NCBI RefSeq assembly: GCF_018143015.1 | Contig: NC_054751.1 | Span: forward strand, 27,386,783-27,450,782 | Source: Lytechinus variegatus | Taxonomy: Eukaryota; Echinodermata; Echinoidea; Temnopleuroida; Toxopneustidae | DNA length: 64,000 nt | Direction: 5' to 3' | Shown here: piece after piece, positions 260 through 38,400 of the stretch | Position numbering within the stretch: the stretch's first letter is position 1 | Layout of the letters: each line of letters begins with the position of its first letter | Translations under genes and position numbers: made by a program | Notes under the pieces: model-generated | Database searches by the model: none | The model's input: only the letters and a program-made list of their open reading frames with translations | Told to the model about the DNA's origin: nothing

Positions 260-333
<74 letters not shown>

Positions 334-346
334 ATATAGAGAGAGC
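155..346. repeat. (TA)n microsatellites
   Basis: Two pure TA runs (about 155-194 and 262-327) are separated by about 65 bases of unique sequence. Open frames across them encode only Tyr-Ile repeats and are not genes. The rest of 1-940 shows no recognisable coding exon or repeat. Confidence 0.95.
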
Positions 347-1140: not shown

Positions 1141-1172
1141 AAATTGAATGAATTTATTCTTTCAATTTCAAG

Positions 1173-1951: not shown

Positions 1952-2370
1952 GCAATGGTTAAAAGTAGCGATAGGAATATGAAAGAGAGAGAGAGAGAGA
2001 AGGGTGGGGGAGCAGACGTGGGAGTGAGAGTATATACTCTGAAATTGTGTCTTTCATTTTTTTCTGAAATTCTGTAATTATGATATATTAAGATCTTTGA
2101 ATATTCACTGCCTTTTATATTTCTTAGACAGTGATTGCATAATGTTATATATCTGAACATGCAAATGTATATACAACAGAAATTTAGGAAGTTATAAGAA
2201 AAAAATTGCAATGATGTTTCATTAAATTGGCCATGATAATTGTGTGTCTTATGCAAACCCATTCATTTTGATGTTTCAAAAGAAACAAACTCTCCTTGGG
2301 ACGTTACATTACCATCAGGTACCTGTAGTTGACAGTATATAAAGTTGAATTTTTGACATTTTTATTGCAG
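1952..2370 (+). other. 3' flank of the Skeletor-like gene
   Basis: Probable 3' UTR and downstream sequence. A short (GA)n run lies at 1984-2002. No conserved ORF was seen, and no polyadenylation site could be fixed. Confidence 0.4.
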
Positions 2371-3012
2371 GTGAAGGCGAGACTAAGGGATTAATGTATC
2401 TTCTTTCTTGTATCCGTCCACAAACATTATGACAGATGACCTTGCAAGCATGCATCACTTTTTAACCAAACTTCGGCTGTACATGAACCAATGGAACCTG
2501 CATGTAATGGTGAAGTTATAGGTCACATGGAAAGGTCAAAGGTTATTTCAGGTCAAATGTGAAAGTTTACATGCAAGACTCTCATATGACAGATATGTTT
2601 GAAACCGTATTTCACTTTTCAAGCAAACCTGGGTTGTAAATGTAGTTAAGGGACCTACATGTTATGATGCAGTCAGAGGTCACATGGTCAAAGGTCATTT
2701 CTTCAAAAACTTTGCTCTCTTTATTATTTTCTTCAAATAGGTTTATTTGACACCGCATCTTCCAGAGCACCCGGCTATACTGCATCCACAAACACTTTTC
2801 ACCTTCACACATGTAAAATATCAGTGCAATAGCAAAAGGGTGGAGTAGGTACAGGGGAATTAGATAGTATGTCATGAAATAGCCCTTCTCAAACATTATT
2901 TGGTATTACATTCTATGCAAGATTTTCCACAATGAGGTTTGGATACAATGCTGTTACGTGGTGAAGGGGTTGGCAATATTTCTAGCTATTTTCTCAAGTG
3001 GGCGAGACACAA
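2371..3012 (+). repeat. GTCTCGCC-family repeat, divergent copy
   Basis: It starts near AGGCGAGACT and ends at GTGGGCGAGACAC. Internal phrases (CAACCAAAC..., GGTCACATGG.AAGGTC.AAGGT, TTTCAGGTCAA) recur at 58119-58454. It contains several AGGTCA-type half-sites. It is non-coding and the boundaries are approximate. Confidence 0.6.
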
Positions 3013-3060
3013 CATTGCTAATGCCTTGATTCAAGTACAGCTTAATATTATCACGTTTCA

Positions 3061-3250
3061 AACTTTAAGGCCATCCAGTATGATCTAAAGAGGGGCGACA
3101 CTGTAAACACGTCAACAAACCTTATCCACCGACCTTATATAAGAACCACTTCCTTTAATTCTTTCATAACATCTTGTATTAAAGAGTGGAACCGGTTACC
3201 TGCTGATATTAGGAAATGTACAATTTGTTATCGGTTTAAAGTTTAAAGGA
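3061..3250 (+). pseudogene. LINE ORF2 C-terminal relic (CR1/L2/Rex-like)
   Basis: Frame 1 from 3121 to 3246 reads 41 codons and a stop, including RTTSFNSFI and IKEWNRLPADIRKCT. This matches the C-terminal signature of non-LTR reverse-transcriptase ORFs (arginine-rich stretch, then .EWN.LP..I). Nothing of the reverse transcriptase or endonuclease domains remains. It is a 5'-truncated, dead copy. Confidence 0.7.
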
Positions 3251-3358
3251 TATCTTTTTGATAATCCGGGTTAGATCTAGTATAGAAAGTATCGTTCTAT
3301 ATAAATATGAGTTATCACGTAGCTGGCCAGCCTATAGTCGCTTGTGTGTGTGTGTTGA

Positions 3359-3530
3359 GGTGCCATGGCCGAGTGGTCTAAGGCGCCTGGCTATGCATGG
3401 AAAGTCCAGGGTTCGATCCCCCGGCCTCGGCACCTATGCCCGTGAGCAAAGCATTTAATCTACAATGCTCTTTTATCTTGCTCTCAAATAAATGGAAATG
3501 CTATATGCATTATTTGTAACTAGGTGTTCA
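3359..3530 (+). repeat. tRNA-derived SINE
   Basis: The head (3359-3433) has an acceptor-like GGTGCC...GGCACC pair, a Leu/Ser-type A box (TGGCCGAGTGGTCTAAGG) and a B box (GGTTCGATCCC). The anticodon stem and loop are degenerate, so it is not a working tRNA gene. The body ends AAATAAATGGAAATGCTATA, and the same tail recurs at about 41309. Confidence 0.75.
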
Positions 3531-4177
3531 CTTGTTTTTAAAAAAAAGTGAGGATGTGTTTGTGTTGCATATTTGTTTTTGCTTATCTCTGTTTTTTTTC
3601 TGTATATATCTTTATGTTATTCTTATTATGTACAGTATGTTCCTTCATTGTTTACATCTCATTTATTGTAGGGCCCCACTCACAAGCTCTGCTTTTTAGG
3701 GTTCCTCAACAACCTCTCATATATATTATTTATCTTTTTGTATTATTTGTTCATTGATTTGTACTTATTTGTCTGTTTTTTTAACAAATTTAATTTGAAC
3801 TTAACTAAGGGACAGGGGTTGCTGCCCCTTTGAATTCTTGATTCATTAAACAAGTGAAAGAGGGAATAAAGATACCAACTTCACAGAATGAAGTCTGGGG
3901 CATGTATAGGTCTATACTTCAAATTTTATTCAATTAAGAAAAAAAAATTAAGTCACTTAGAGGTTGCCCCCCCCCCATCAAAATATGACAATGCCCCTTG
4001 ATCTGAAGTGAGCTTTGTTTAAAACAATACTAGTGAATTGGTGATATTTGCAGGTCTTTTTCTGAAATATTAGCTTATTTAGATTTTTAGTTCCAAATTA
4101 AACATTTGTTTGTTAAAAAAAAACATAATAATGTAAATACATGTACTTAATAGAGTATTCTTAAGAAAAATAATATA
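3531..4177. other. Gene-free stretch, possible LINE 3' tail
   Basis: The piece around 3660-3730 (GGGCCCCACTCACAAGC, then GGGTTCCTCAACAAC) looks like a non-LTR 3' UTR, but only by recall. No coding signal is seen. Confidence 0.3.
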
Positions 4178-4383
4178 CAGAGCTGCCAAGTAGTACTGAT
4201 TTTCCGTATTTAGTACTGAAAAATGAGAAGAATACTGATGGTTTGATGCAAAATACTGATTTCTAAAGTTTCAGTTTATGTGTTGTCCTGTGCTATTTCC
4301 TTGGAAATACTGATTTCCTCACCAAAATACTGATTTTCAGCTTTAGAAATACTGAAATGTACTTGTTCAGGTTGGCAGCTCTG
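4178..4383. mobile_element. hAT-like MITE, CAGAGCTGCCAA family, copy 1
   Basis: The termini are CAGAGCTGCCAAG and GGTTGGCAGCTCTG. The hexamer AATATA precedes the left end and follows the right end, suggesting a 6-bp target duplication. The interior repeats the phrase AATACTGATTT. It is 206 bp and non-coding. Relatives are at 30245, 34308 and 46228. Confidence 0.8.
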
Positions 4384-7300
4384 AATATATGTACAATTTC
4401 TATCTCATTTTTAGAAACTGCGAATTTGAATATTGATAGCATGCAATATAATAAACTTTATTTGTGGCCATATACAGTAAGTGTAGCTGCATTACGACAT
4501 GAAATAGATTGGATAGTACTATAAGTAGAGAATTATTAAATATGTATGATGTGCACGCAATGGTAAAAATGACTTTACAGGGACCTTAAATGTAATGTAG
4601 TTAAATGTCTTTAAATTTTACTTATACACATGACCAAGGCTTATTGAACATAAGTAAGAGAGGTAGTGAAGCAAGTGAGTTTTCCAGATGGCAGTTTTTA
4701 TTTTTCCTGTTTTTTGTTTTTCATTTAAATGTTAATTGAAGAAAGATCACGTACATCCCCCTATTTAACCAACAGTTTAATGCTCGTATTCTAGCCAACT
4801 TTTTGAGTTGGTTGAACAAAATGTGAGTGTAGAATCTTGATGCAATTATAACAGTACTATCTTTTATACTTCACAATGTTAAGCACATATCCACTTGTTA
4901 GTTATGTTATTTTCAGGTATGCAATATTACCTATATTTTGATATATGTTTTATCTTTTTATTTTGAATGATTTTTATCTTAAGTGCAGGGTGCCTTTTAA
5001 TAGTATGCAAGCAAATCAAAATAGGCCTATAATAAAGTGTGAAGTAAATTGTATCATGTGAGAAAGATATATGCATGTAAATTTGTAACGTGTTGTCAGA
5101 ATATTATGAGAAAAAAATAAAACAAATGAATATCACATGCTGGTATTAAACGTATTCTGATTTGATTCACCAAGTTCACTGCATGTACATGAATGTTCTT
5201 GAATATGACCATTATGAAGGGAAAATAATGAAAACTGCTCCTATTTTAGTAAAATATAAAACCTTTATCAATTTCTTCATCCATTGGGTTTGTATTGTGT
5301 TTGATAGCCAGTAGTTTTAGAGGTACAGCAAGGGTGTATACAGGATTTTCCCGAGAAAAATTTGACAAGCAAAATTGGGAGAAAAAGGGTTTTCACAAAA
5401 AATTGTCATTTCGTCCGCGAGAAATATGACAAGCAAAAATACAGAAAGAAAAGAAGGTCCTCATTTCTGTATGAATGGCATATTTCCATTACAACTGTAA
5501 ATATGCTGTATCTTTTAAGGGGGCACACTTGTGTAATAACAGTATATTTACATTAAAATTTTTGAGTATGGCTCTCAAAGGGGGGGGGGGGGCACAGCCC
5601 CTGGATTTGCCACTGAGGTACTTTGTATTGCATTTTTTCATTATTATGAATGCTAGAAATTACATATGAAATATGCGAACAGCTTCCCCATATATCGTGT
5701 AATATATTCCATAAAATCTTTTCTTGTTCAACTTATAAAAATATAATACAATACCTTATTTCTCAAGAAGGGGGTCTAGATGTGTCTGATTATACACCTC
5801 CAGAACAAATAAAATAAATTTTAATTTTGTTCCATGAAAATTGTATTTTATGGAATCTATGCCATTATGACATATCGGGGAGCCGTTCATCTGACATCGC
5901 AAAACTTTTAAAAAAAATCACAACTCCATCATTGCTCTTTGACAGATCTTCATGAAACCACCAATATTTGTCTCCATTTTATCTGCTCATATTTTAATGG
6001 TGACGATGGACTCCCCCCTTTAGCCCATCGTTAAATGGTGCTGTTCCAATACCTCACTGTTTTTTTCCTTTAGATACCAGGCTAGATACATACATACAGG
6101 TAATACAAGACAACAAAACATTTCATTTTCTGTTTGTTCTTCACATAGACCATACTGTCTTTCATTTTATTAGAATTGTCTCATTATAGTAATATAATTC
6201 ACTGTTACAGAGAATACAACTCTGAAAACATGCTGTGGCCCATCATGGATCACCTCAAACGTGGCATACGTGGCTATACATATCATTTTTAATTAAAAAG
6301 TCACTGATATTCCATGTTCATGATGATTAATACAAAATAGTGCACGAGTAACAGTATTTCTATATTCACAAGGGAAGAGCTGCAATGTATTGTCGAGTTC
6401 AGAATTTCTCTCACATTTTCTCAATTTCGACTTTATAGCTTTATGTTTACTGCCAGACAACTTATGCCTGGGCATGCAACACGATTTTCAGATCATTTTT
6501 TTTGCCACGTACAAATCAAGATGCATCACATTGTTTGACTGTTTATAATTATTCCACTTGTTTAAATTTGAATTAAATCACTAGATGGCATGTTATTAAA
6601 GCAGATATATCTTTACGTCTCATTATACAGCAGTCCACCATCTTATAGCAATGGAACAAAAACATCATTTGTTGTGTAAAATAAAAGAGGCAACAGTTGC
6701 ATCCCTCATACACAATTCGTACCCAAAATTGATCAAAATTTCTTGTCAACGATATCCCTCATTCATTTTTTCCATTTTCCCCCAAATCCTAATAGGTTCC
6801 ATGGTTCTTTCAAAATAGACGTGACTAACTACCAAAGATTCAATATTCTGAATGTTCCTTAATCTGAATGTTTCTTATTCTGAAAAATGAATGAAGTGCG
6901 TTATTACAGAGGTTAATTCATTTGAAAATAAAGGTTTGTATTGTTAATTACTTTTATGCTCATAAACCTCATTTTATTTTTGAACAACCAACCCTTCAGA
7001 ATAACGAATCTTAATTGTATTTTAGATGATCGAAACTTTCTGAAAAATGAACCTTTTTTGTCAGGATTTATCAACCTTGGAAACTTGAATTTCTGAATAC
7101 AGACCCATTTTAATAAGAAGTGTATACCAATAACGTATGCAGCAATTAGACATTACTAGCATGTGTAATGAACTTCATTCCCATTACTAGCATTAGCATG
7201 TGTAATGAACTTCATTCCCATACATATTAAATTCACTCATTTTAATAATCTCTATTAAATATGATAAACACACACACGAACATATGATATTTGTGCGTCT

Positions 7301-13994: not shown

Positions 13995-14494
13995 CTATGT
14001 ATTCGGCCATTGGTTCGTTAAGAAGTACTTGAAGAACTCGTAGACTGACCATGATAGCGCCGTGGCCGGCATCTGGAACACCACTCTGGCGCCTATACCC
14101 TTGAAGTAACCGCGGAGCCCGCCGATGTCGTATATAGTCCTAAAGGCATGGAGCATGCCATTTATTGACGACCTCCCATTAGTCACGCCCCGCTCCTGCG
14201 TGTTCAGCAGAGTCTTGCAAACGTCCAACGGGGTCGTGACTGCGGCGGCGAAGGCTCCCGCGAACGCGCCCGACATGACGTGTGTCTTTGGGTTGTACTT
14301 TCGTTCAGAGTTCAGGTACTCTTGGCCCAGTTCGTAGGTGACGAAATGGACGGTTTGGAAGGGTATATTCATAGTGAGCTGGGTGGTGTAGCTCCGGTAA
14401 AAGGCATTGTAGCCTTCAGTTCTCCACACCCGCTTAAAACAGTCTGTTACGTTCTTGTAGGGGCTGTTGTACATCTGCATGCGTTGCTTGATCA
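13995..14494 (-). CDS. SLC25A28: Mitoferrin exon 4 (terminal coding exon)
   Basis: This exon encodes residues 198 (split codon) to 363: the end of the second solcar repeat and all of the third. The acceptor on the - strand reads GAATCGAACAG before TGATCAAG; the leading TG completes a Val codon begun in exon 3. The stop TAG lies at 13997-13995. It contains [17 protein letters not shown] and YEFFKYFL, all mitoferrin-like. The exon is GC-richer than the surrounding DNA. Confidence 0.95.
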
Positions 14495-17400
14495 CTGTTC
14501 GATTCAAATTGGCACCAATATTTCATGTTGATATCACGATGATCAGTTCAACGACAGCAAGCAGAAAGCCATGATTTTCGGTGGTGAAGGTCAAGCCGGT
14601 GTGATGTAATGGAGATCCAGGTCAATCCAGTAATACACCAGATGAGAGCACAGAAAAGGAAAGGAAAAGAAGGAATAAACAAAAGGAAATCTGTTATTTG
14701 TGACATAATATTGTAGAGCAATTATGCTTACATCATATGAAGCCCAATGAGAAGAAATAAATAAATCTGCATGCTGACCTTGGTTAGAACCATAGGATCA
14801 ATTCTTATGCCAAACCAATACCACTTATGAGTTTGATTTGAATCAATCCTTAAAAAAAGATTGATAAAAAGATAATGAAAGTCCAGTTATATTCTAGTGT
14901 TAAATAAGAAAAAAATGTCAAACATCAAATTGTATTAGTAATTCTTTACATATAAATAAAAACAAAAAACAATGATTTAAATTGCTGGTTACACTAAATG
15001 GGATTAAAATATAGAAATAGAAAAAAAGTAGGAAAGTGAGATAAGAAGAAACAGAAATAATGAATTAAAAAAGAGATAAATCTAGAAAGAAATAAACAAA
15101 AGAAAAAAGGGGAAAATAAAACAAGATAAGAAACAGGAAAAAAGGACTGAAAAAGAAATGGTGAAAGAAAAAATAAAGAATAAAAGAAGGAATAAATGAA
15201 AGCAAGAAAGAAACAAAGAAAGAAAGCGGTAGGAATTCATATTGTAACATCCTGGTTATATTATGAAAAAATGTCATTGCACTGACAATACCCAAATGCA
15301 ATGTAGGAGTTCAACCAACCCTATCACGTTTGAATACATCCTGGTGCATGACATTTATTTTGTAACAGTAGGAGTCATTTCATAATATCAATGGCAAAAA
15401 TCTTCACCAGGTACAACCCGATACTACAATGACAAAAATAAAAAGAAAAAGAGGCTTAATAACATAGCACCCTTTTCTAATAAACCAGGATGTTTTTTTT
15501 TAAGAGAGAGAGAAAGAAAAAGGGAGCTGTCATCATTTCCTGTGGTTTTGGTTTATGTGGAATGTACAGTATGTCTCAAGGAAGGATACACATGAAGGGC
15601 AACATAGTATGCATGTGCATGTAAATTGTAGAATATCCAAATTCAGGTGATAAAATAATAAATGTCCATTGGATAGAATGATAATTAATTACCAAGGAAA
15701 AATTCTGAAACCAATTAAAATTTGTATGAATACATTGTTAAAAACGTTAAAAGCAGCGATGTTGTAAACATTTACTCATCATAAGAATGCTGTTGGAAAG
15801 ATCGCCCGTTGGTATAATTAGCATCACTTTCGTACATTGGCTCAAAAATTTGTTATTTAAGATTATAGGACACCTACATGTAGATAGATCATTGGCATTT
15901 GATTGGTTGTTTGATATCGATCATTCTGCTCGTTTTACTATGACATCATCGAACATGCAATTTAGGATCCATTCATCATGCAATTTTGGATCCACACGAT
16001 TTTGTCCCTTGCACGCGTGCATTATGTACGCGACATACGTGACAATCAACAGACTGAGCTCACACTGCATGATCATATTTTGCATTGTCATTGATAAATT
16101 TCTTATGAAACTTAATCTAGTTTTAAGTGTCATATAAACCAAATAATGAATGCTCCTACATTCGTGCAATGGACAAAATACTTCATTCGGTGAAAGATGA
16201 AATGAACGATCCATTCAACTCGACTACACCTCTTGGAATGGATCTTTTCATCTTTCACCTCATGAAGTATTCTGTCCATTGCACTCATAAACAATCATTA
16301 TTTGTATACTATTTCTTTGCAATTATTTCGAGACATTCAGATTGGATTATAATTCACACGACTTTTAAGCCACTTTGGCATGCCCCGGAGTTCAAGAAAT
16401 CCAAAAAGTTTTTTTCTTGATGACTAATTTCCTTCCTAAGGTGAGTGATAACAGATTTAAAAAATTCCCAACTCCATATCGCCATTTTTGGCCTTATTCC
16501 CGTCACAGTACACGTAGGTAGCATCTTTCTTTTTTTTCAAGGAATTTCATCATTTTGGAAATTCCACAGGACTTACTACATTACTTGGTTTCAATGAAAT
16601 TGATGAGAAAATGGAAAATCCTGACTATAGTCTAGCCAACTTTGACATTCACTTTCAGTACATGTTACACATGGTTTCCTCTGCATTTCCTTCACATGTA
16701 TATCAAGATGGTTTGCCAGAAATCTCTAATTCCCCATGATACCACAATGTCCTAATCTCTATTCTTGACAACTTACTGTTGAAGGAAACCACAGGCAAAA
16801 CAAATTGACCCCATTTCCAAGCAAAATCATTTCTCCACAAAAGAAACCCCCAAGGTCAACGAATCCGTGCATGGCAGTGCACGTAAAGATAGTAAATTTT
16901 TTAATAGACGGACCTAAATATTGTATTATTTGTGAGCAACCAGCAAGGATGTGTTGAGGAAAGGTCATGTATCACTGATGCTTAATAGGCCGACAGCTGC
17001 ATAGCTACACACATGTAAAAAAGGTCTTTAACAGTTCATTCATTTTTGGCAGGAATACTGTATAATCAATTCTCAGAGCAGCATGTGAATGAAATCGATA
17101 CCAGCGGTGATACCAATGAAGGCACACATGCAATGCTGCTGTTAAGCCAGTATTAGTAAAAGTACATGTACCGTATTATATCTTTTAAGTGCAGTGTGTC
17201 ACATTTGAAGAATGTATCTGTATCTTTTAATCTGGAATGATTATGAATTGTAAATAATACATAAGATGGTGATACCCCTAGCTAAATGGATTATTGAAAT
17301 ACCATAAATGGTCATTTTCAAACAAAAGTGGACATGGGGGTGAAAATTAAAACTTGCTAGAAATCATTAGGCTTCAATGTTTTTTGAAACTAGACATCTT

Positions 17401-20400
17401 AAAGTATATTTTTCCATTTCATTTACATAAAATTATTAATTATGTCTTGAGATACAGTGAATTTTATGCTAGGGAAATTAAATGTTACAAAATGTTGATT
17501 TTTGCATTAAAATTCACATATTGCCTATCACAATATAAAATTTGTATTAGAAGCGCATTTGTTGGCAAGATACAAGCTGTTTATTGTATCTAACTCCTAA
17601 ATAACAAAAAAAATTCTGTGAAGTGTTTTTCTGAAAAAAATTGGGTTTTGAAGTTTTCAAAACTGGTTGTCGTGTCACTCACGTTTTAAATGCAAAAAGT
17701 TTTCTAGAGCTGTGTATTCTGAAAATTAATTTATCCCAGTACTGGAGCAAATACAGTTTATCTGTACCTTATTGCGTATAAAGTAACTTGGTCCAATGTG
17801 TTAAGGTAAAGCTAAAATTAACTGTTAAAGTTGTGTCGTGTCACTCACAATGTCGTGTCACTCACGAAATGTCGTGTCACTCACGGTATTAAATTGTGTT
17901 TAAAAAAGGACATCCAGTAATTTTTGAAGCGTTTTACCAGGGATACAGTTAGAATGTTGTTCCTGACATCATTTAGGCCCATTTTAGGCTAATAATTTTC
18001 TCCATCTTCCTAATTTTACTCCTTTTTATGGAAATATTGAATTCGACATTGAGTTCATCTATTTTCTCTCCTCTCCGTGGTTGCCTTGGTTTAAAAAATC
18101 CTGACAATTTTCCATTGGTGTGAAGACTTGGATCCTAATTCATATTTTGGTGAATGTACTGTGATTATGAATATCACAACATAATCAACACAAAATTATG
18201 AATGTATCAAGAGAAAAAACACTATACTTTAGCAATGGACATACAATGCATAAAGGGTTGGTGATGGTTCAAGTCATACCTAGGTATTACTCGAACATTC
18301 TCTGTCTCCATTTACAGAAATGAGCAGAAAGTTCACCTTTCTTTTGAGCAATGTTATTTCTTTGTTATACTCATAGCTAGAAAAGTCAGGGATCCTTTTG
18401 AAATTTGCTGAAATTTTAGTGGTAAAGTAGTGTACATGAGATATAAGAGATCACCATGAACACCAAACATTTTTTCAAATTTGGAAAAGAAAATATTTTT
18501 CTTTTCCTTCTGACTGATTAAATCAACCTTTTCATTTGCCATAAAGCTTGTATTCCAGGACATGAAATAAACAAATTTGCAAGATAACAAACATTTCAGG
18601 TGAGAATGTACTGAGATTTGATAGAACATTTTGGATATTGCTTGAAGCAGCTACATGCCAAGTTCAAAATCATTATTTGTTCGGCCACCATTCATACCGC
18701 TAGTGATTAACTACATACAGGTTCTGAACAGCAAACTACCGTAAGCGGGCCGATGTGTGTTCAGAGCAGATTTGCATTTACACATATTCATTACAACAAA
18801 ATGATGCATGTTCATGTAGGTCCCAACAAGTCCCAACTGAGACCGCATTTTGATTTGAGCAACTTTGATGGGTTGCCATGTACCAGTAGATCAATTTTTT
18901 TTTTTTTTTTTTGGGGGGTACCCTGATAAGATCAGAGCTGGACCTTGAGGGGAAAAGCTATTGAGGTATAAAGGGAGCCTGGTTGGGATGCTGAATTTGA
19001 TTTTAGTGTGACATCCAAGGGCTTAGAAAAGGAAAGGCTAATGACTTGTAGTTGTTATGTAATAGTAGCAGACTGCAAGAATCATGTACTGACTGCGTCT
19101 TTCACCTTGTGGCTTTCCCTGGATTCCGTGGTATGGTATATGATCAAATAGTCAGCAATGAAAAGGCACTTACAAGATTCCAGCTAAAAGCATAGCTCTG
19201 AATTTTGGTACAGTGCCTACATGTACTGCCTTGGGAGGGTCCACATACAAGCAGTGTTCAGGAGAAAACCTATGCTTGTTGAGTTGAATTCCCAAGTTTC
19301 TCAAGGATTTGCTGATAGTCCATCTGAAGTGTGCAGCAACGTGATTGTGGTTTGGTACCAAAAGATATTAAAACTGCCATGTCCTATTTGGACAATGCCT
19401 AAAATATTAAAGGAGGATAATATTGTAATCCAATATTTCAAGAAAGAGGAGTCATACATGACATCATTGGCTACCAGACCATGCCAGATGATGTGAGTGA
19501 CTATTGAGAATACCTTTCTTACAAGGAAAAATTATTCCATCCATTGTGGATGCTGAATTGTATAAACCCGTAAACTTTCATATACAGATAGGGAGAAAGA
19601 GTTAAAGTTTTGAATGATATCAGGCCACAAAAAGAATGTTTGAGTTGATGTCAGTGCCAAGACCTCATAACACCTCCTTCAAGTGCCCCCTCCTCCTCTA
19701 AAGAGGAGAGTGGTAGAAGCCCTAGTGTGACAATGTGGTATGGTATAGGGAATGTGAGTTGATGGGCAAATATGACCATAAACCAAGAATAAAACATCAG
19801 GATGACATATTATGAACTTTAAAGAAAGCAGTTATTATGTAATCAAGCTTGTTTTTGGTTAATGGTATTTTACTCTTCTACATCATGCAAAAAAGTTTTC
19901 ATTGTTGAAATAAATGTTGTATTTTTTGCACTTGTCGTGTCACTCACGTTTTGGATGTCGTGTCACTCACGGTATATAGGAGGGTACCATTTTCCATAGA
20001 GAAGGTTTGATTGATTTTGACTATATGTGTTAGATAGGTACACTATTTATGTCCATTTACTGGTACTCACAGTACTCCATGACAACTACTTGGGCACGAA
20101 TCCAACCATATGTGTTAGTGGTCAGAAACCCATGTCCAAAATTTGTCGTGTCACTCACGCACCGTTTTTTAATCATATCTACTAAACAAATTGTTGAATT
20201 CAAATCAAACTCGTAGTGGCCCATGCCAGTCCTACATTGTATATAATATAGTAGTCATGATTGATTCATAACCTTTAAGTTTGAAGATATGAGCCCTTAA
20301 ACCTCTCCGATTGTCGTGTCACTCACGTTTGAAAATGACCAAATACAATTCCTTGCCAGTTGTAACAAATAAAGACCACACATTTGTGTTTAATACAACG

Positions 20401-23400
20401 GGGTAAATGTAACACTTATGATACAGACCTACGTGTACATTAAACTTGCTATTATCTGAAATGACTGGGCTGAAAAATCAGGGTTCCAGATGCATTATTG
20501 TCATTATTGGTGAATATGAAAATAATAATAAAAATAAAGAAAAGCCATATTTTATTGTTCGAAATGAAATTAAAAAAAATCTATATACATGTATTCTAAA
20601 TAACCAATCAAATCTTCACACACAAAAAAAATTACATTTTTTTTTAATGAACCAATGTGAGATTTTAATGCAACTACCTTTGTGAATTTGGGCAATATAG
20701 TTGAAATAACCTCTAAAGGGGGGGGGGGGTCTAATTCTACAGTGCTGCTTTTTGAGCATGACAGTGAAAAGTTCCTACATTGTATTTACAGATCTCTCAC
20801 TGGACACTATGGGAATTACATGAATACAAATTCTTCAGTGTACCTTAACTTCTTATCTAATCGTAGTCAAGCTCTTGCAGTGTCCTCCAATAATAAATTA
20901 GTCAAATAAGATTCAAAACTGTTTAGATAATTTTTTATGTACATTGTCAAGTCAAATAACTGCATTATTATTTTTTTCCTTTTCTTTAATTATTAATATT
21001 GCAATGAATCAATTGAAATGATTGCTGATTGATCCATGGTACACTTGTTTCCCTCAAATTAACTGTTGCCACTCTCAGTTCTATACTTTTAATTCATGTT
21101 TCTTTTTTTATATTCTTATACTGACCTGGATGGAGGTAAAGGGGTGTGGGAAGGAAGACCTGTGGGTCATGGTAATTTAGTTAACCTTTTCCAAACCCAG
21201 GCAGCCCCTTCATCTCTATTCCAGGTCCTTTGTACTAAGTCACTTATGTCCTATTGTTTATGTAAATTGTATTGTACTATAATATATGTATTTTGAATTG
21301 CCGAATAAATAATAATAAAGAGCTCTCTTTTTAGTATGTTGGGGTTCTTGAGGAGCTATTTCACCCTGAGCTCCCAATTTTTCCCACCCCTAATCTTTTC
21401 TGATCCAATGAATGGATGTTTTGATACCATACCTTCTACAGGATTCATGGCAGCATCATGGATGACTGTTGCTAGGCCACCTGCGACCGCTGTAAAGACA
21501 ATCGGGAGATGTTAGAACGGCAGTAAAAAATATTGTTGAATATGTCACGAACTTCAATCACCTGCTCAGCTATGACGCAGCTAAGATTTATTTCAGTCTG
21601 ATCCAGAAATAGCGATCGCTTTGGGTGAAATTCACAAAGGTGGTTAATTTTAGACCATGGACTACTTTGTGCTATAGGTGCGCTTTAATGGTCAATGCAC
21701 ATTATGGAATGATTTAATGATCCTAAGTATGGTATGCTGAATTTGCGTCTGTTACATGTTAAAACTAAAAGAAGCGCAGCCTAAAAAAAAATTGAATAGT
21801 CCAAACTCCACGGTCTAAATTTGAAGCAGCCTTATGAAATTCCATCCTACAACTCTAGTTCTCCCAAAAAAAAAACAATTATGTACTGTATGGTAGATAA
21901 TAAAATAATCTCTGACTTTGACATTAATGTACCTTCCATGTCAAGCTGTGCAAGTTACGCAAGTGAACAGAATCTGCAAACTCTTATAAAATTCTTTTTT
22001 TTCAATCTTGATGTCAAAACGTTTGTTTATTATTTGAAGAGTTTAGTTTTAAAAGGGGTTAGGTCCACTTTGGACCATTCCGAGAAAAAACAGGTTTTTC
22101 ATACTCACTAATTGCAATATTCTTATGAGAAACTAAATTGTCATGATGTGCCAACTACCCTATCATGTAAACATAAAATTGGGTATAAAAGAAATCTACC
22201 TGTCTTCACTTTTTTTCTATATATTAAAAAAATATATCATTGTGGACCTCACCACTTTTGCAAGCAAACTGAAATGAATCCAAACTATTTTGATTAAAAA
22301 GGTGATATTCCTTTGCCACTTTCATTCACGTTTTCATTTCAATTTCAAATTTTCTTTGGTATCATCAGAGTGACTAAAAATTTAGAGGTTTAGAGAGAGA
22401 AAACAATAAAATCTATGAAAAATACCTTACATAAATATCAAACTATAATATTAAAAGTAATTGCATTTCTTTGCAATTTCGGGATGTCATTATTGAGTCT
22501 GGTGAAGGTTAAGTTACATGTATTATGTAATTTTATTACCGGTACATTGTTCTACAATGTCATAGAAGAAATACTCTCTTTCACAAAACCACATGGGAAT
22601 GTAGCACAAGTAAAGAGCCGATTCTAAATATTGTGTTCATTTCTGACTCAATAATAGGAAATTGGTGAGATTGCCATATCTTTGCCAGTTTCTATTGATA
22701 TACATTTTATTGCATGCGTTTTATTTCAGTTTATAGGAAGTGATATCTATATTTACCAATTTCTATTGACTAACTACAATCAGCAACACTTGCTATTTCT
22801 TTCAATGGAACTTCTTATCTCGAAAATTAGTTGACCAGATTGCTCGATTTCAATATCATTTCCAGGCTCAAAGTATAAAAAATATTACAGTATAATCCCC
22901 AACAAATATCAAATACTGTGCTAGGCCCGAGTCAAAACGGTTAGCCACCCAGACCCAAACAGACGTGATCAAATTCTGTTTTGTATTTTCAGGTTTCACA
23001 AGATTTTTAAGTAATTAATACAAGTTCTTATGTTCTCATCTGTTTCATGCTCTGAAATCTCGAATAAAAATTATCAAATCAATATGAAGCTGCAGCCATT
23101 CCCTTAACTTTAAGCTTACTGTACAAGCTGACAAATAAAGAGCTTTAAGATTAACTGAAATCCGAAAGCAAAGACTCACTTGGCTCCTAGGTGTTTAAGA
23201 GGTACTTATGATCTACAAAGACACCCGGACTCTCTGCCGCGCTCACGCAGTGCAAACTACTTCATTGGCGGCCACCCAACACAGCCTGGCGCCCTCATAT
23301 CCACAAAATAATGGCATGAGTTGCTTTTTCTTTTGAGTTGATTCCAGAGTCGACCAGGAAGAATGAAACAAAGAAAGCATAAGAGCTTAGACAGGCCTCT

Positions 23401-26400: not shown

Positions 26401-29400
26401 TGGGGGGAGGGGAGGGAGATAGAGGGGATGATGGGAAGGGAAATTGGAAGAGATATAGACAGAAACAGAGTTGGTAATAAATGTTAACTTGTTGGGTTTT
26501 AGTTCATATTATAATATGCATCTTGCAATTATTTCATCCAAAGTATAACAAAAACATAGAATCAATAAATGATGACGCCAGTGTATTACTTTTGAATGAT
26601 GGTTTATTGATGGCAAAGTGAAATAACTATTATCCTTTTTACACAGGCTAAAATTTCCTTAACCCCGTACTATAGGTGAATTAGCCCCACCTATAGTACG
26701 GGGTTAAGCTTAGCCCACTTTCTTTTTACACAGCATTTTTGCAAAGTGGGCTAACCCCACCTATAGTACGGGATTATTTGGCCCTGCAAAAAAGCAGGGT
26801 TATCCCAGCAATTGCGGTGCTAAGAGCGATAGTACGAGGTTAAGATCACTAGTGTAAAAGGAAAGTGGGCTAAGCTTAACCCCGTACTATAGGTGGGTTA
26901 AATAGCAATTTAGCCCCACCTATAGTACGGGGTTAAGGAAATTTTAGCGTGTGTAAAAAGTGTACGAGTGAAGTACTTGTACTACGAATGATCGACAAAA
27001 ACCACTAGTCCGGGGTTAGCGAGTTTCGTGTGTAAAAAGCAAGCATTCCTTATCCGGGGTTAGCAATAACAATTTGGCATGTGTGAGAAGGAAAAAATAT
27101 AGTACGGGGTTAAGGATAGTACGGGGTTAGCGATAGTCCGGGGTTAAGAAAATCTTGTGTAAAAAGGGTAAAAGTCAGTCTATAAAGATGACCAAGTGTA
27201 AAACACACACAAATTACTTCCATCTCTATATAATGCTAAAATAATCAGAATAGCAAGGTCATTCAACTTCAAGTGGGTTTACATGTAATTATGAACCATT
27301 AAATCATTCATTGATTTAGGAATACAAGGAATACATATAATAAGCCTATGCAGTGTGCACTCTGAAGAACTGTGAATGATGGATCAGATTTAAATGTCCT
27401 TCCTTTACAGGGTATGTCATGAAAGGGGAGGTCTGCAGATTAGCTGATGGCCACCGATGGCCATGGCAGTTGGTGCCCCGGGAGGCCCACTGCCATTGAC
27501 GAGTGGATACCATGCGCGACCATGGGGTATCGAAAAGCACCCTTAATACGTATTCTCCATATTCTGAAAATGCACTCCTTAACAAGTAGTGGCGTCTGAA
27601 ACCCTACCCTTAACAAGTATTGGAAACGATATTCTTGGCAGGTATTCTCTGAAATGAATCCCTAAACAAGTACAGCAATATCTTATTGTTATGTCACCGG
27701 TCCGTTGGTCGTCTGTTTTACCTTTACACAGTACGGCCCCACCTTCCACACCTCGCACAAATCGGATTCTAAGCAAGTACCGTTGGGGCAAGAAGGACAT
27801 CCATTATACATTTTAATTTTGTTTTATCATCCACGCAAATTCGACCCTAAACACGTAGCTTTCCTAGCGAAATAGATACCCTTTTTTCATTATTTTTGTG
27901 TTTTTTACACCCTTATCACGTTACGTACGTAACATGCTCTTTCTTGAAAAAGACATCCTTTTTACGTGTTTTTTTTGTCGTGCATGGTATCCACTCGTCA
28001 ATGTAAGTGCCCCCCCCCCTGGGGTTGGTGCCCGGGCCTCTTCATGGCCATGATGCCCTTCGAATTTCAGCTTGTAATACATGTACATTGAAAATGCCTT
28101 TTTTTCATGTGGCCACGGTATGTATTCTCTCCAAAGAATGCCCTTTTTGTTTGGCCATGGTGCCTAATATTTGTTAGCCTTCGTGCCCTGTTGAAAAAAA
28201 TCATACAAGGCCATGTGCCATTTCTATACAGGGGTCCGGATTCAAAGTGGCCTTCCCTTCACCCCCTATTAGAGACCATTCGTTTTTGGTGACGAGCCAT
28301 GTGGATGTACGAGATTAATGAATTTTGGGAGAGCTGAGGATGCATGAAGTAATCTGTGACGAGCCTTCTCATTCACTGCCCAAATCTGTGACTCGTATTT
28401 GAGGGTTTTGATATTCGGTGTCAGAGTGCTCGAACGAGCGCTAGTTCGTACATAATGACGCCATCCAAGCTTAGCAAAAATGAATGAAGCCACATCAACA
28501 TTCGAGTTTTGTTGATTCAGCAGGGCTGGTTAACTGCAAATTACTGCTTGTTACCAGATTTTCCATTACATTTAGTGAGTCCTGTTTTTAGACACTTCAT
28601 ATAAGTAATTGATGTTCTATTTCCAAACAACTGTGTTTTTCGGCTTTTTCGCGCAAGAGTGCAAATGTTGCACACAGTCGCCCCACTGGTTCGTAGCGTG
28701 ATGCTACGCCTGATTCTCCGGCCCGCTCGCTATCACGCTGGTATATGCTGTGCCCTGGTACAGGTACTTCGACTTAAATCGAAACTGTTTTCATCAACGT
28801 ACGAACGTGATACTGAACGAGTGGTGTCACCACTTCCGGTGAACTAGGACTACATTGCAGTCGCAGACAAACGAAAGCTTACTACTATGGTATCCTAATT
28901 TGAGACCTGAATAGGATGGATTCAAAGTAATAAATCCCCATTGTATAAAATTGAAGCGTGCCTATTCCGTTATCACCAGGCATCCGTATCCCAAATTCCC
29001 AGGTTGCAAAAAAAAAAATCTTCATCCTGTTTGTATTCCCTGTTTTCAGTGTTAACGTTTTGCAGAGGAAATTGCAAGTGACAAGCACTGTGGTCAAACA
29101 TGAAAAGAATTAAAGTTGTACACATGTACAGTAGATACAGTACATGTACATGTACCGGTATGTAACTTTACAAACAACTTTATGAAACACCATCCTGGCA
29201 GAGTCACTCTCCATCAAGCAGGAAATGACAGGTTCAAATCAAACCCCACTGGTTCCACGACTTATTCTGGCTTAATCTTTTTCAGATTGAACATGAAATC
29301 TAATCCACTTTACTATATCTTTATACCACTCTACTTTCCCAGTCTTTTCCCCCGGCCTTTTCAATTCCAAATAACACTTTGACTTTAGAAAACGAAGCTG

Positions 29401-32400
29401 TTAATATTGCCAACTTTCAAGGAGTGTCGGCCATCTTGGAATCTTTGACTTCATCAAGTAGAACTATTCAGGGAGTTTTGTTTGCACTGGAGTCAGATAA
29501 ATAAGGAATCTGAATACTCTTGGCTTTTCATTCAAGCACATCACCAACAGAATAAATAATCCAAGGCAAACATACATGTACATGCATGTGACAAAAGGTC
29601 TGTAATGAAATCAGCAGTTACATGTACATCGTACAGTGCCTACTTATTCATTAAAGATAAATTCCAGTTCTGGTAACGATCTCAAAATGACTTTTTACAT
29701 AATCTAATATAATGACCACCCAAGTGTCTGTTTGTATGAATAAAAATATGTGCCAAAGGATTCTGGAAGAAATTGCGTAATTGCTGAGAAATAAGCAAAA
29801 TAAGCGCGGATTCAGTCACTTCCGTCGGGTCTTTATTCCAGCAATAATAATACACTGTCCCATGTGCGCTTATCTGTGTTGGCGATCTTCAGTGTGATCC
29901 CATTTCAGCGTAGATTTCAAGATTTCACAAAGTTCAGTTTACGTAACTGTATCAGATCTAGATCCTCGATGATATACTGACAATTAAGCCTGGTTTTACA
30001 GACTTTCTCATGAAATCAGTGTTTACTGCAACTACTGGTATTTCTCTTTAAGTCCTTCTTCATGTGAAATACACGTAGATCTAGCATTATGAGATCTGAT
30101 TGAACTACATGTACATTTCATGAACAAAGGTTTCATAAATATTCAATGTAATGTAATAACTCTACATCAAATCATAAAACTATTGAATAACACTGCAAGA
30201 AGGGTTGACAAAGTTGTGCTAATGTACTTCATTCATCAAATAATCAGAGCTGCCAAGTGCCAACCTTTATTGGCGAAAGTCATATTCTTAATTTCTCTTT
30301 ATCCTATTTTCGAGCCTAAAATCCTACTTTTGTTTCAAATTTCAAAAAACATAATTGTTGAAAAAAAATTAAAGCATCATTTGTAAAAAAAAAATCTTTT
30401 TGAATGAGAAAACCCTAGTCAGTGTAATTTTCCTTAAAAATCCAACTAAATAGCATAAAATCCTACTTGTTGGCAGTTCTACATGTAGGTTCTGAGAGCT
30501 GAGTTTTTACACAATCTACCTGTAACATTAGCATCAGACCTGCCAGGGTCCACCGCAAAAAGAGATGCATTTATGAGATAAAAACCCTTGAAACAACTTT
30601 GTATGAACACAGAGAAATCAATGAAACAAATTGATCACTAAATATTTGGGAAAAATTGAATAAACAATAAGAAAAATAATTGAAATCTAAAGAATGACTA
30701 CTGTTTAAAGCACCCTTTTCTAATATATATACCCCAAAACATTTATTTATTTTTTATGTCAAAACATTCATTTTTGCTCATTCTTGTTCAAGTTAAAATC
30801 TTTGTCCATTATTCTTACAAATTGCACTCTTCTGTGATTTCATGAATGACACTACAAAAATGTGTAACAAGATCAACCTTGACAAATACAATCTGCTTGT
30901 TTACTTAAGTTCAAATTACACATTGCACATGTAATCAACAAATTTAGAGCAGATCCAAAATGATAAAAAAGCAAAGTGGTTGATCTCCAGTTAGATTTTA
31001 GAAGATTCACAAATAAACCATTGAATTATCTTCTGATTGCAAAAGTAAGCCTGATGCTACACATCTACATGTATTTTCCTCTATTTTTGTCAATGAAATA
31101 CAATATTTGGTGACATTCCTTAGTTTTGAATTTGTCACACTAGTTTTAATTTAGAACAAGTTCTTAAAAGGGAATACTTCATCTCTGTATCTGTATAAGG
31201 TTTAAGAAATATACTGTAATTAATGGACCAGCAAATTTTGGCTGGTCTGCTAAAAAATAGTCCAAGAAGTTTTTTTTTTGGTCAATTTTTCTTCAGTATT
31301 CCTTTTTTATACTTAACCACAAACAACAAGGCTGCAAATATGATGGTTTTTTTTTTACAAAGTTTGTTCAGTTCAGGAAGTCACCACCACACATCTTTAA
31401 TACCCTTTTTACACAGGATTTTCTTAGCCCCGGACTATCACTAACCCCGTACTATCCTTAACCCTGTACTATGTTTTTTCCTTTTCACACATGCCAAATT
31501 GTTATTGCTAACCCCGGATACGGAATGCTTGCTTTTTAAACACGAAAATCGCTAACCCCGGACTAGTGGTTTTTGTCGATCATTCGTAGTACAAGTACTT
31601 CACTCGTACACTTTTTACACAAGCTAAAATTTCCTTAACCCCGTACTATAGGTGGGGCTAAATTGCTATTTAGCCCCAACTATAGTACGGGGTTAAGCTT
31701 AGCCCACTTTCGTTTTACACTAATGATCTTAACCCCGTACTATCGCTCTTAGCACCGCAATTGCTGGGATAACCCTGCTTTTTTGCAGGGCCAAATAATC
31801 CCGTACTAAAGGTGGGGTTAGCCCACTTTGCAAAAATGCTATGTAAAAAGAAAGTGGGCTAAGCTTAACCCCGTACTATAGGTGGGGCTAAATGGCAATA
31901 TAGCCCCACCTATAGTACGAGGTTAAGGAAATTTTAGCCTGTGTAAAAAGGGTATAAGAAATCTTGTTTCTCATACATCGCAATCCCTTCCCTTTCTACC
32001 TGCACAGTAAAGCTGTGCATTCATGTAGAGCCCTCGTTTTGAAGTTTGGATCCCTGCACAATGACATATTTACAGATTTTCTCTTTCCTGTTAACTATCA
32101 CAAATCTAAGAAACACACTAAAAAACAACAGGAGGTCAATTGCACGTACATATCCTGTGTGTATTATTATTACAGTTACAGCAAAGGGACCTTGTCCCAA
32201 CGCTGCATCTATCTCTACCTGTATACACTGATACACATGACTGAATTCTTTCACACATTATACACATGGCAGAGGTATTTCGAGATCATGAAAGTTATAC
32301 AGGTACCCTCATTAACTAATGTAAATACTGTGCTACTAAATCTGCTCCTACATTAGCAGCAGACAATGTGTTATCATAGTCAGCCATGCATGTACATAGT

Positions 32401-35400
32401 AACATAGATATCTCTGAACGCTGCTAGATGTACATGTACATACTTAAATTTCATAATACTAGAACTGTGTAAAAGTTGCAAGTCATTGTTTGCAGTCTGA
32501 TACTAGATGTAGGGAGTTCCCACTGCATGGTACTGTTAGGGTATTAAGATTCTGAACAATATGCCTGTATACTGTATGGCATGCGGCTTAGGCATGCTTA
32601 GAATGTATGTGCCCCTAGAAATAAAAGACCAAATCTATAATCTGTCATTATTATTATTATTATTTTATTCGGCATACAGAATCAAATAAAATATTACAAA
32701 CAGGTGAATACAAAATGCAATAGAGTCATACAGATCATAATATAAAATTCAAGACAAAATTACGTTGTATCAGGTGCGTCTGGTCAAGCTGCCAGGGTAT
32801 GGAAAAAGTTAACTTAATAACTATGGTCCGCAGACCTTCCTCCCCATACCTGACCAGACGCACCTGATATTGATTGAAATAATACATATATATATATACA
32901 TACATGTATATCAAAGTAAAATATGTACATTTGGTAATGGTCATGATGTATAAACGAATGGAGAAAAATTATGAAAAATTATTAAATCATTGCATATAAT
33001 CACTAATTCAAAAACATAAACATAACATAATCATTGTTTAACGGCCTTGTTTTATAATGTCTACAGATAAACCTTCTGATAATATGAAAACACTATTCAA
33101 TAATTCAAAGCCAGATAAGTTCAAGGTTGTAGATACCCTATTGACTGGCCTCAATACCCATCTTACATTTGGTCCTGGGAAATATTATGCTCTTTTGATT
33201 TTAAGTCAAGGAATGGGTGGTGCTGTCCAATATTATTCATGTTATTGTTCTTAATTATTTTCAAAACCAAGGGGGATTTCCAACAAATTTGGTATCTTTT
33301 CAAAGTTAAATTAATTAGCTAAAATAATTTAGAAAATTTCATGGCTACATGTACATTAATATAAGGTTTATGGAAATTTAGTTGCATGTCCTCTAAGGCT
33401 CTAACAAGGGGCACCAAGGTTGCTGCCGGAAGCGGTGCTGCCAGTGACCCCTACATGTATTCAAAGCCAATAGGGATTCTCAATATTTTTAGCTATTTAG
33501 CGTCAAATATCAATATTTTTGTAAAGATTAATATTTTTGTAAAAACTTGACTTCCAACTACTAAGCTTACAAGTACAATACACTTTACTTTCATAGAAAT
33601 TTTTAATTTCTAGTCTTTTTTCTTCTTCATTGACTTTTGAACTAAGAAAAGGCAATGAATCTTAGGAAAAAATCACCATGTAACCCTAAAGTAGGGGACT
33701 TCGGCTTCATGACCCATAACCATGTTTTCTTTTTTTTTCTGCTTTCAACCATCCAAACTCGGGTTGAGTAATACTTGTGATGACTCAGACCCAAGCTACT
33801 ATGATTTCAGGTGACGAGGCAAGCTATCACTTCCTCAGCTAGCTGGATGTTACACGAGACTGAAGCGAAGCCGAGAAAAGATTGCAAGTGTTCCACATCG
33901 TGTCGAATTCTTGCTTTCTTTTATCAGCTTCGCTTCAGTCTCAGAAGACGTCCAGCTTGATTCGAAAGTGATTGTTTGCCGGGCAAACAATCACTTTCGA
34001 ATCAAGCTGGACGTCTTCTGAGACTGAAGCGAAGCTGATAAAAGAGACTTTGCCCATACCATCCAAGTGATTATTCATTGGGTTAATATTTTTGTGCAAC
34101 TTCGACAGTGTCTGGAAGAAGGCAATATATGGAGAAAACATGGGAAAGTTGCTTATGTATGACATCACAATTCACAACACAAGTAAAAAAATAAAATCAT
34201 AATAGATTCTTTCTTTAGCCTAATCTGATGGATTTTTCTTTAAAGAACCTTTACCAATATCTTTTCTCAATTAAACCTGCTTCCCCGTAGAATCCAATAT
34301 GAATGTCACAGAGATGCCAAGTTCAAGACCAGCTATGCATGAGATTTTCTGTGAATCAGAGTGAGATCACAGACATTGTGTACAATGTATATGGGGATAG
34401 GCTGTGATAGTTGCGTGAGACAGAGATTTGAGGGGATGAACAAGAGTCCAAAATGCTTGAGTCTCACGCATAATGTGTGCGACTAGGTAGCTCTGATGTC
34501 ATGTCATTGTCATATATGTCTCGTATGTGTGATGCCTCGTAATCGATTATGACATTGGATTTTAAAAACCTGAAGTTTCAAGATTAAACTTTTTCAGTGT
34601 GACCAGCGTTCTCGCCAGTGTATAATACGCATGGTTCAAACACCATGCGTGTGGAAATGGAAATTTCAGCCACATGCGTGGAAAAATTAAATAGAAATAT
34701 TCAGAAAAAAATAATACACTCCATGAACTCATCTTAGTGATATCAATTTCATTTATCGGGTTGCGCCGAAGTCCCACCAACTTAAGACCACTTAATAATG
34801 TTGTAAGTTAGAGCAATTACGGGATCGGAGTTCGGTTCGGAAGTTTTGCTCCTAAAATCGGAATCGGTTCGGATATCGGATCGGAAGATATTCAAAAACA
34901 AAAAAATACATTAAAATTTGTATGTGGCCGGCGCGTGGACAAATGCGGCACGCTACACTGATGGCAGAATTTGTTTTGATCTCCGACAAAAGCGGAGGAA
35001 GAAGATGATGAGTTGTTTTGATCTCCGACATAATCGGAGGAAGGAAAATAAGATAATGACGTTCCAGCGCGCGACACTACCGCCGATCAACGATAGGCCT
35101 CTTCTCTACAACATCGTGGTGATGGCGGAGGTAATCGTAAACTCTTAAAGGTCGCATGACCTCCCAAAAAAGACGCATTATTATCCAGAGTTGTTTACCA
35201 TGATATTCACCTTCTCTACAACACCGTAGTGATGGTGGAGGTAATCGTAATCTCATAAAGGTCGCAGGACCTCCCGAAAAAGACGCATTATTATCAAGAG
35301 TTGTTTACCGTGATATTCACCTTCTCTACAACATCGTAGTGATGGCGGAGGTAATCGTAAACTCTTAAAGGTCGCATGACCTCCCGAAAAAGACGCATTA

Positions 35401-38400
35401 TTATCCAGAGTTGTTTACCATGGTATTCACCTTCTCTTCAACATAATCACTTCGATGTTGTAGAGAAGGTGAATATCACGGTAAACAACTCTTTGATAAT
35501 AATGCGTCTTTTCGGGAGGTCATGCGACCTTTTTGAGATTACGATTACCTCCGCCATCACTACGACGTTGTAGAGAAGGTGAATATCATGGTAAACAACT
35601 CTGGATAATAATGCGTCTTTTTCGGGAGGTCATGCGACCTTTAAGAGTTTACGATTACCTCCGCCATCACTACGATGTTGTAGAGAAGGTGAATATCACG
35701 GTAAACAACTCTTGATAATAATGCGTCTTTTTCGGGAGGTCATGCGACCTTTATGAGTTTACGATTACCTCCGCCATCACTACGATGTTGTAGAGAAGGT
35801 GAATATCACGGTAAACAACTCTTCATAATAATGCGTCTTTTTTGGGAGGTCATGCGACCTTTATGAGATTACGATTACCTCCGCCATCACTACGATGTTG
35901 TAGAGAAGGTGAATATCATGGTAAACAACTCTAGATAATAATGCGTCTTTTTGGGGAGGTCATGCGACCTTTAAGAGTTTACGATTACCTCCGCCATCAC
36001 TACGATGTTGTAGAGAAGGTGAATATCACGGTAAACAACTCTTGATAATAATGCGTCTTTTTCGGGAGGTCATGCAGTTTACGATTACCTCCGCCATCAC
36101 TACGATGTTGTAGAGAAGGTGAATATCACGGTAAACAACTTTTGATAATAATGCGTCTTTTTTGGGAGGTCATGCGACCTTTATGAGATTACGATTACCT
36201 CCGCCATCACTACGATGTTGTAGAGAAGGTGAATATCATGGTAAACAACTCTAGATAATAATGCGTCTTTTTTGGGAGGTCATGCGACCTTTAAGAGTTT
36301 ACGATTACCTCCGCCATCACTACGATGTTGTAGAGAAGGTGAATATCACGGTAAACGCATTATTATCCAGAGTTGTTTACCATGATATTCACCTTCTCTA
36401 CAACATCGTAGTGATGGCGGAGGTAATCGTAATCTCTTAAAGGTCGCATGACCTCCCAAAAAAGACGCATTATTATCTAGAGTTGTTTACCGTGATATTC
36501 ACCTTCTCTACAACATCGTAGTGATGGCGGAGGTAATCATAATCTCATAAAGGTCGCATGACCTCCCAAAAAAGACGCATTATTATCTAGAGTTGTTTAC
36601 CGTGATATTCACCTTCTCTACAACATCGTAGTGATGGCGGAGGTAATCGTAATCTCATAAAGGTCGCATGACCTCCCAAAAAAGACGCATTATTATCTAG
36701 AGTTGTTTACCGTGATATTCACCTTCTCTACAACATCGTAGTGATGGCGGAGGTAATCGTAATCTCATAAAGGTCGCATGACCTCCCGAAAAAGACGCAT
36801 TATTATTATTTACCTTCTCTACAACATCGTAGTGATAGCGGAGGTAATCGTAAACTCTTAGAGGACGTATAGTCAGATAGTCGTAAATATTACCGCGCAT
36901 GTCAGCGTGTTCAACTAAATCTTATTTGCCTCCGCTTAAGATCAAAACATATCGTCTTTTCGTTGTTTTTCTTCCTCCATTTTTGTCGGAGATCAAAACA
37001 AATTATCACCAATTATCATTATCGTTTTGTTCTTCCCCGATTATGTCGGAGATCAAAACAAATCATAATCTTCTTCTCCACCTGCCTTTCCGCTAATATC
37101 ACAGATAAAAACAAATCATAATTTTCTTCCCCTTTATCTTCTTTTCCTTCCACCGCTTTTGTCTGAGATCTAAACAAATCACCAGCGCATTTTGACAGCA
37201 AACATGTCGCCACGTGTTTGTTTTTTTTTTGTCTTGTTATGTTTTGGTTTTTCCGATCCGATTTTTTCCCCACTGGTCAAAAATCGGAGTTCGGAAAAAT
37301 GTAGAAAAAAGGGGAAAATCGGATCGGGAATTGGATTAAAAATCGGTTACAGCATTACTTACAGGCCTACTACGGCTAGGAAAGTGGCAAGGCGCCCAGC
37401 TAGCTCGCGGCTGAGAAATCAGCAAATAAGCACAGGATTTGGATAGAGGGTCAGGCCCGACGCTCTAAGCAATAATTATACATTGTCCCATGTGCGCTTA
37501 TCTGTGTTGGGGATCTTCGGTGTGAACATTTTTCAGCGTAGATTTCAAGGTTTCACAAAGTTCAGTTAATGTAACTGTACCAGATCTAGATCCTCGATGA
37601 TATACTGACAATTAAGCCTTGTTTTATAGACTTTCTCATGAAATCAGTGTTTACTGCAACTACTGGAATTTCTCTTTAACTACCGTAAGTAACTGGGATC
37701 AATCACTAACATTGCGAGAGTCTACTACTAGTAGTACTACATGTAGCTTCTTCTCAAATGGTGGTGTGACTTTATTTTGCATAAGGTCAAAATCTCAATT
37801 TAATCAAAATCTTGAAAAACTGATATCATCAACAGAAAAGGCAACCCAAAATTAGGTCTACCCTAGCATAGACATTTTTTTAAGGTAGGACCTGTTTGTG
37901 AAAATAGTGGCATAACATCAGCAATTTTTTTTACCTTTTGCGTCCGCTCCGAGAAAATCAGAACTTCTCCACAAGCATAGTTTAGAGAAATCGCCAGTTT
38001 GCAAGCAGAGCCAGGTCTCCAAAGTAAAATGTGATACCAACAAAATTGATCACATTTTAACCTCATCTGATATAATTATCTTCTTACCTTTGTCTGCTTG
38101 ATTTCTTTTCTAAATCTTTGCAAAACAATCGTGCGCAAATTAAGGTTACACTTTTATATGAATACTTTTTCAGCCAAGTGCGCACTAGTCGATCGTCATG
38201 GAATTTTGAGATGACGATACCAGCATAACCTACTCTTTAAATCCGTCAAGCGAATTTGACTGTGGGATCTTGCCTTCCATTATGATTTTGATTAATTTTG
38301 GGTGAACTGTGCTGTGCAGTGAGAAATTCTTGATTGAAAGTCAACTTCATAATTTTTAAAATGTGTGCAAATTATGGTCATCCCATCATACATGCCCAAA

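Follow-up and report, generated by a model that had tools for sequence, protein, structure and literature searches.

The region analysed (hereafter the window) is a stretch of 64,000 nucleotides of the Lytechinus variegatus genome. Part of a mitochondrial carrier gene was found on its minus strand at positions 13995–21490, with a Pfam Mito_carr match of 7.3e-39, the last coding exon lying within 13995–14507 and a further exon near 21433–21490 being recognised by translation. We take this gene to be mitoferrin-like. One of its introns holds a 3,031 bp element on the plus strand (17310–20340), in agreement with the intronic location given by the first-pass annotation of this DNA. The element is one copy of a DNA transposon family, called here family A, with inverted ends, 4-bp duplications and many dispersed copies, the alignments of which span its positions 1 to 3031. 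Comparison of the ends of the copies placed a 14 bp left terminal inverted repeat, GGTCATTTTCAAAC, at 17310–17323 (plus strand), and the 14 bp right terminal inverted repeat at 20327–20340 (minus strand, GTTTGAAAATGACC on the plus strand). Outside these repeats are the AAAT target-site duplications, at 17306–17309 on the left and 20341–20344 on the right.

A motif search of the window located the 16-mer TGTCGTGTCACTCACG eight times inside the element, seven times exactly and once with a single mismatch, always on the plus strand and at the positions reported earlier. They form two groups of four, at 17668–17885 and 19933–20327, separated by an interior of about 2 kb devoid of motif copies (17886–19932), in which the longest open frame does not exceed 102 aa. 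The left group starts 359 bp from the left end with the copy at 17668–17683, followed by the copies at 17834–17849, 17851–17866 and 17870–17885. The right group consists of the copies at 19933–19948, 19956–19971, 20144–20159 (181 bp from the right end) and 20312–20327. This last copy ends 13 bp from the right end, and its final base is the first base of the right inverted repeat. The copies at 17870 and 19956 are directly followed by GGTAT, as had been noticed. The single-mismatch copy, at 17834, has A for the final G. This A corresponds to the family state (about 26 other copies read at this column show no mismatch), so that the odd copy does not result from local decay. The motif has sharp 16-base edges, and its ends, as read from the sequence, form a dyad, CGTG-N5-CACG. 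Allowing up to three mismatches, nine matches were present in the window, compared to 0.16 on average in a set of 100 dinucleotide shuffles (maximum 3), which bears out the proposed enrichment; the ninth match (30841, minus strand, three mismatches) was taken as chance. Outside the motifs the element is poor in CpG (20 CpG in 2,903 bp, observed/expected 0.23, compared to 0.57 for the whole window), and 15 of the 16 CpG of the eight motifs are retained.

Neither the 16-mer nor its 15-mers gave a match in the open-licence papers searched; a 12-mer of the motif present in two Fusarium papers was taken as chance. Among viral contigs there were eight single motif hits. Neither the paired nor the end-joined pattern matched there, and the paired pattern was without any match in prokaryote contigs.

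An exact 15-nt inverted repeat (17309–17323 and 20327–20341) encloses both motif groups; neither this repeat nor the two-group layout appeared in the first-pass annotation. Its 14 nt lying outside the motif were equalled in 15 of 2,000 shuffles of the left and right flanking zones, and an inverted match of at least 15 nt anywhere in the whole region was reached in 40 of 300 shuffles. As the inverted repeat by itself is weak in the whole-region shuffles, it is the other copies that settle the bounds of the element. Remnants of a transposase were sought in family A. A Pfam scan covered eight of its 31 stop-to-stop pieces, with nothing below 0.07, and its plus-strand frames, all three written with X at the stops, with no match. 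The THAP-like look of one stretch was an impression and was dropped.

The genome (870 Mb in 33 contigs) contains 1,236 exact copies of the 16-mer and none of the reversed word. The left-end 17-mer, sought with T or A before it, matched exactly at 183 places, 161 of them preceded by T and 22 by A, the reversed controls giving 0 and 1. Eighteen loci of contig 1 were fetched by means of the 16-mer and aligned to the element of the window. In nine of them the whole element aligned in one piece (L028, one of the nine, having a broken right end), six extended to both ends but were interrupted by gaps or inserts inside, two were devoid of the left 142–173 bp and one consisted of the right 366 bp only. 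Most of the alignments started at the first base and stopped at the last base of the window element, and at all loci examined the motif lay inside the element. The 4-bp duplication was perfect in nine of the 15 copies readable at both ends, the window copy included, with one mismatch in four and two mismatches in two. The duplicated targets were variable (AAAT, ATTG, ATGT, TACT, AGCG and others). The motif offsets were nearly constant in every one of the 13 further family A copies listed. Dispersed copies with inverted repeats and a duplication of fixed length are what characterises cut-and-paste transposons with terminal inverted repeats.

The genome count and the alignment of flanks thus led to a larger mobile unit, of which the motif is a fixed part. 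This is the very outcome that had been named as refuting the picture drawn previously, in which the 16-mer alone was kept and the intervening sequence shared nothing; the first of these two statements is wrong. Within the window copy the second statement holds: among 12 pairwise comparisons of the inter-motif segments, the best score was reached by 12 of 200 shuffles. Between copies of the element it does not, as the intervening sequence aligns too.

The first statement was examined on a sample chosen independently of the motif. A motif-free interior query yielded 241 candidates, of which 40 were scored and 30 cut out, one being the window itself, leaving the 29 copies closest to the window element. 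Divergence, counted from the commonest base, amounted in the pooled copies to 3.4% in the motif (117/3,485, 0.0336) and 3.1% elsewhere (2,517/82,427, 0.0305; p 0.32), so that the 16-mer is not the only part kept. When the classes were separated, the values were 59/2,663 (0.0222) in the motif versus 2,375/81,068 (0.0293) elsewhere for non-CpG positions (p 0.03), and 58/822 (0.0706) versus 142/1,359 (0.1045) for CpG positions (p 0.007), the cells not being independent in either comparison. Between copies the motif is therefore not clearly better kept than the remainder, evolving slightly more slowly once CpG sites are matched. Sharper contrasts were seen in copies of contig 1, biased by their selection through exact motifs: 6/102 in the motif versus 424/2,838 elsewhere in L018 (p 0.009), 0/111 versus 198/2,819 in L017, and 0–1 of 128 versus 2.6–3.4% in seven others. 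A constraint acting on the motif after insertion, as expected for sites serving the host, was considered and rejected, since no difference appears between the pooled rates and the class-matched rates are only slightly lower in the motif.

Inserts were present in the longer copies L018, L031 and L033/L034. Those of L031 and L033 turned out to be other families, named B and C, and L035 is truncated; these longer copies were discarded as autonomous members of family A. Family B was found at two places (2197–5199 of L031, and 5121–8115 of L033+L034), with ends GAGCATGATCGGTT, the motif TGTCCGTCCGTGAT and the duplications AGTT and ACTT, both perfect. Family C has ends GGGCCTGTTTCAAAATTG and the motif CATGTCGGACGGAAT; three of its four duplications are perfect (TTGT, AGGA, TATG) and the fourth, ATTG/ACTG, has one mismatch. 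Both families possess a private word of about 15 bases. The words and terminal inverted repeats of B and C differ from those of A, TCCGTCCG is common to the B and C words in one orientation, and all three families make 4-bp duplications. In the left array of family B (L031 2394–3160), paired direct repeats of at least 35 nt, 76–92% alike, lie 372–400 bp apart, and the array looks as if it had grown by doubling of two site-to-site units.

The positions of the sites relative to the ends were nearly the same in the three families. From the left end, motifs start at 181, 363 and 534–556 in family C, at 182, 365, 532–555, 729–752 and 930–953 in family B, and at 359–360 and 525–562 in family A, which is devoid of the site near 182. 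The distances from motif end to right end are 13, 181 and 369/392 in A, 15, 191–193 and 379–407 in B, and 25, 190, 382/401 and 559/578 in C. In all three the two rightmost sites stand alone and are followed inwards by a pair or a triple, and neighbouring site clusters are 165–202 bp apart. These right-end sites are co-oriented once TCCGTCCG is used to align the B and C words, the relative orientation of A being less sure; the eight A sites all point in one direction and those of B and C do not. Random uniform placement, within ranges set after the data had been seen, produced as good an agreement in 2 of 200,000 trials for A on C and in none of 200,000 for A on B or for C on B. When the motifs were masked, four of the six end comparisons were at shuffle level, the others being the left ends of A and C (9/200 shuffles) and the right ends of B and C (13/200). 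On account of this weak similarity it is possible that the common layout was inherited by descent.

Other repeats of the window were noted. A second element at 26631–31954 has inverted ends of about 540 bp whose arms are 96–97% complementary. Repeats of the ATAGTACGGGGTTA type crowd these ends in either orientation, with 11 exact 14-mers; the sites are denser than those of families A–C and their spacing is unlike. At 47434–53933, inverted arms of 396 nt (96% complementary) surround 5.7 kb containing an intact 715-aa RING / B-box / NHL frame (48972–51119), which may be a gene of the TRIM type transported by an element. Tandem repeats of 110 bp occupy three blocks in 35101–36806, with a switch of orientation near 35445 and 36355, and are CpG-rich (observed/expected 1.12). 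Tandem repeats of about 163 bp with the direct repeat AAGGTCAAAGGTCA, which to our mind resembles nuclear-receptor sites, are located at 54444–55380 and 60040–60763; repeats spaced by 163 bp also exist in L033 (2913–4045).

A candidate transposase was encountered in family C. At C9:17398700–17405700 (L086), an intact 877-aa frame (2294–4927) lies between the left sites and the inner right sites, in a copy deprived of the two outermost right sites present in other family C copies. The other family C copies listed have shorter frames or fragments, and a 137-aa piece of family C gave 30 matches. The acidic core of the protein, read by eye as HVDFSENY ... HFFSDGA ... GPVDGVGG, suggests a DDD enzyme, and in view of the 4-bp duplications we presume it to be probably a transposase of the Sola type. 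The protein matched no named family in Pfam, NCBIfam or PHROGs and gave a single non-significant hit against PDB; its core in viral and prokaryote contigs gave pattern matches, none of them a relative. Distant matches with 23–53% identity occurred at more than ten places, on C13, C10, C7, C2, C11 and others. The transposase of family A was not found: by eye, no left end of A accompanied a transposase match among the matches listed, with the exceptions of a family C copy nested in A (L033) and of one fragment of C located on C5, 4 kb away from an A end.

If each family has a private word, a distant relative is expected to have its own, and this prediction was put to the test. The 2,001 bp upstream of a relative with 33% identity, at C4:26467924, contain TAACNTCCGTAAC five times, at positions 1073, 1262, 1419, 1436 and 1774, with spacings of 189, 157, 17 and 338 bp (expectation 0.08, for a pattern taken from the same sequence). 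The basic N-terminus that follows the array resembles that of family C. For this fourth family only the repetition and the spacing are supported, and not the offsets, because the left end of the element was not found. Near position 679 of L087 a GGGTCATTCTCAAA stretch resembles the family A end; it was tried as the end of the fourth family and rejected, since the sites would then start about 394, 583 and 740 bp from it, at least 24–30 bp off the nearest offsets of A, B and C.

Several known groups can be compared with family A. In 2009, Bao and colleagues reportedly described the Sola superfamily of eukaryotic DNA transposons, with a DDD transposase and 4-bp duplications. The 4-bp duplications of A, B and C and the DDD-like core of the C protein, as read by eye, are in keeping with Sola, for which we know of no shared site layouts. 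Members of the hAT group duplicate about 8 bp, and piggyBac and Kolobok target TTAA. The duplication of 4 bp excludes the former, and the variable targets exclude the latter. The subterminal repeats of En/Spm are densely packed, whereas the sites here are about 180 bp apart. Sola is listed among the RNase H-like transposases in PMC3985635. According to PMC2613891, TNPA binds the subterminal repeats of En/Spm, which differ between families; the short family-private motifs repeated near both ends of A, B and C recall this arrangement of the CACTA elements. The element treated there has CACTA ends and a 3-bp duplication, as opposed to GGTCATTTTCAAAC ends and 4 bp here. Family A would work like a CACTA or En/Spm array and is not a member of that group, its ends being GGTCATTTTCAAAC and not CACTA. 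In Hermes, a hAT element, BED domains bind subterminal repeats, and multiple short sites in both ends, asymmetrically distributed, are needed beyond the inverted repeat (PMC10368747). The Hermes sites measure 4–5 bp and cluster at the tips, unlike the 15–16 bp sites spread here over about 400–550 bp of each end. Since arrays elsewhere operate through protein binding, by TNPA and by the BED domains of Hermes, they offer a parallel for the binding supposed here.

On these comparisons and on the sequence, the element of the window is most probably a non-autonomous cut-and-paste transposon whose 16-mers would be binding sites for a transposase, or for a partner protein, supplied in trans. Among the readings offered by the first-pass annotation, that of a transposon carrying scattered binding sites for a protein agrees best with the data, except that the copy is nearly complete and not a residue. 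The multi-site array also describes the element well, its binding being presumed.

An unlikely explanation, although the best placed of the others, is that the arrays are by-products of the duplication of a unit of about 180–380 bp near the ends. The spacing would then be a fossil of this unit and the motif its last recognisable part, with no present role. The paired direct repeats in the left array of family B and the recurrent spacings near 165–200 bp would be accounted for in this way. Yet the inter-motif segments of A are without detectable similarity beside seven identical motifs, and neutral decay during the divergence of the masters is not expected to spare the motif alone. We give still less weight to a homotypic cluster for a host DNA-binding protein, acting as an enhancer, silencer or insulator and carried or tolerated by the transposon. 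The intronic position and the long near-identical motif with its dyad ends would suit such a cluster, but a host factor would not explain why the offsets, counted in each family from its own ends, agree although the words differ, nor why the last motif copy adjoins the right inverted repeat. That the 16-mer moves, or is captured, as a small unit in its own right, as its sharp boundaries might suggest and as had been envisaged, is very improbable given how little its positions vary among the 13 further A copies listed, its location inside the element at all contig 1 loci examined, and the lack of a match to the paired pattern in the viral or prokaryote collections. Chance repetition in a low-complexity intron can practically be dismissed, with nine matches for 0.16 expected and 1,236 genome copies against none of the reversed word.

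We propose that the binding sites of the transposon would function as follows. An autonomous relative would provide the transposase in trans for family A, and this enzyme or its partner would bind the 16-mer word. Several proteins bound near both ends, one of them adjoining the right inverted repeat, would pair the ends for excision. The sites would be identical in sequence and position because selection acted on the masters that spread, the intervening DNA being free to change. Relatives would retain the layout, with about 180 bp between sites, and swap the word together with the transposase.

It is conceivable, and we put it forward tentatively, that this layout is a conserved ruler, in which sites about one nucleosome repeat apart (165–200 bp) stand at set distances from the ends, different at the two ends, the word being replaced everywhere as the transposase changes. 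Selection would then keep the spacing and not the word, perhaps because the sites lie in successive linkers, or because the synaptic complex is built by loops joining regularly spaced sites. No report of a shared site layout of about 180 bp was found in the open-licence papers searched. As a repeat annotation the element is ordinary. The unusual part is the near-equality of the site offsets in families that differ in word and inverted repeat and whose ends show little similarity. If the layout holds in more families, they would constitute a natural series for the joint change of transposase and sites, and would make it possible to test if the construction of transposon ends follows nucleosome spacing.
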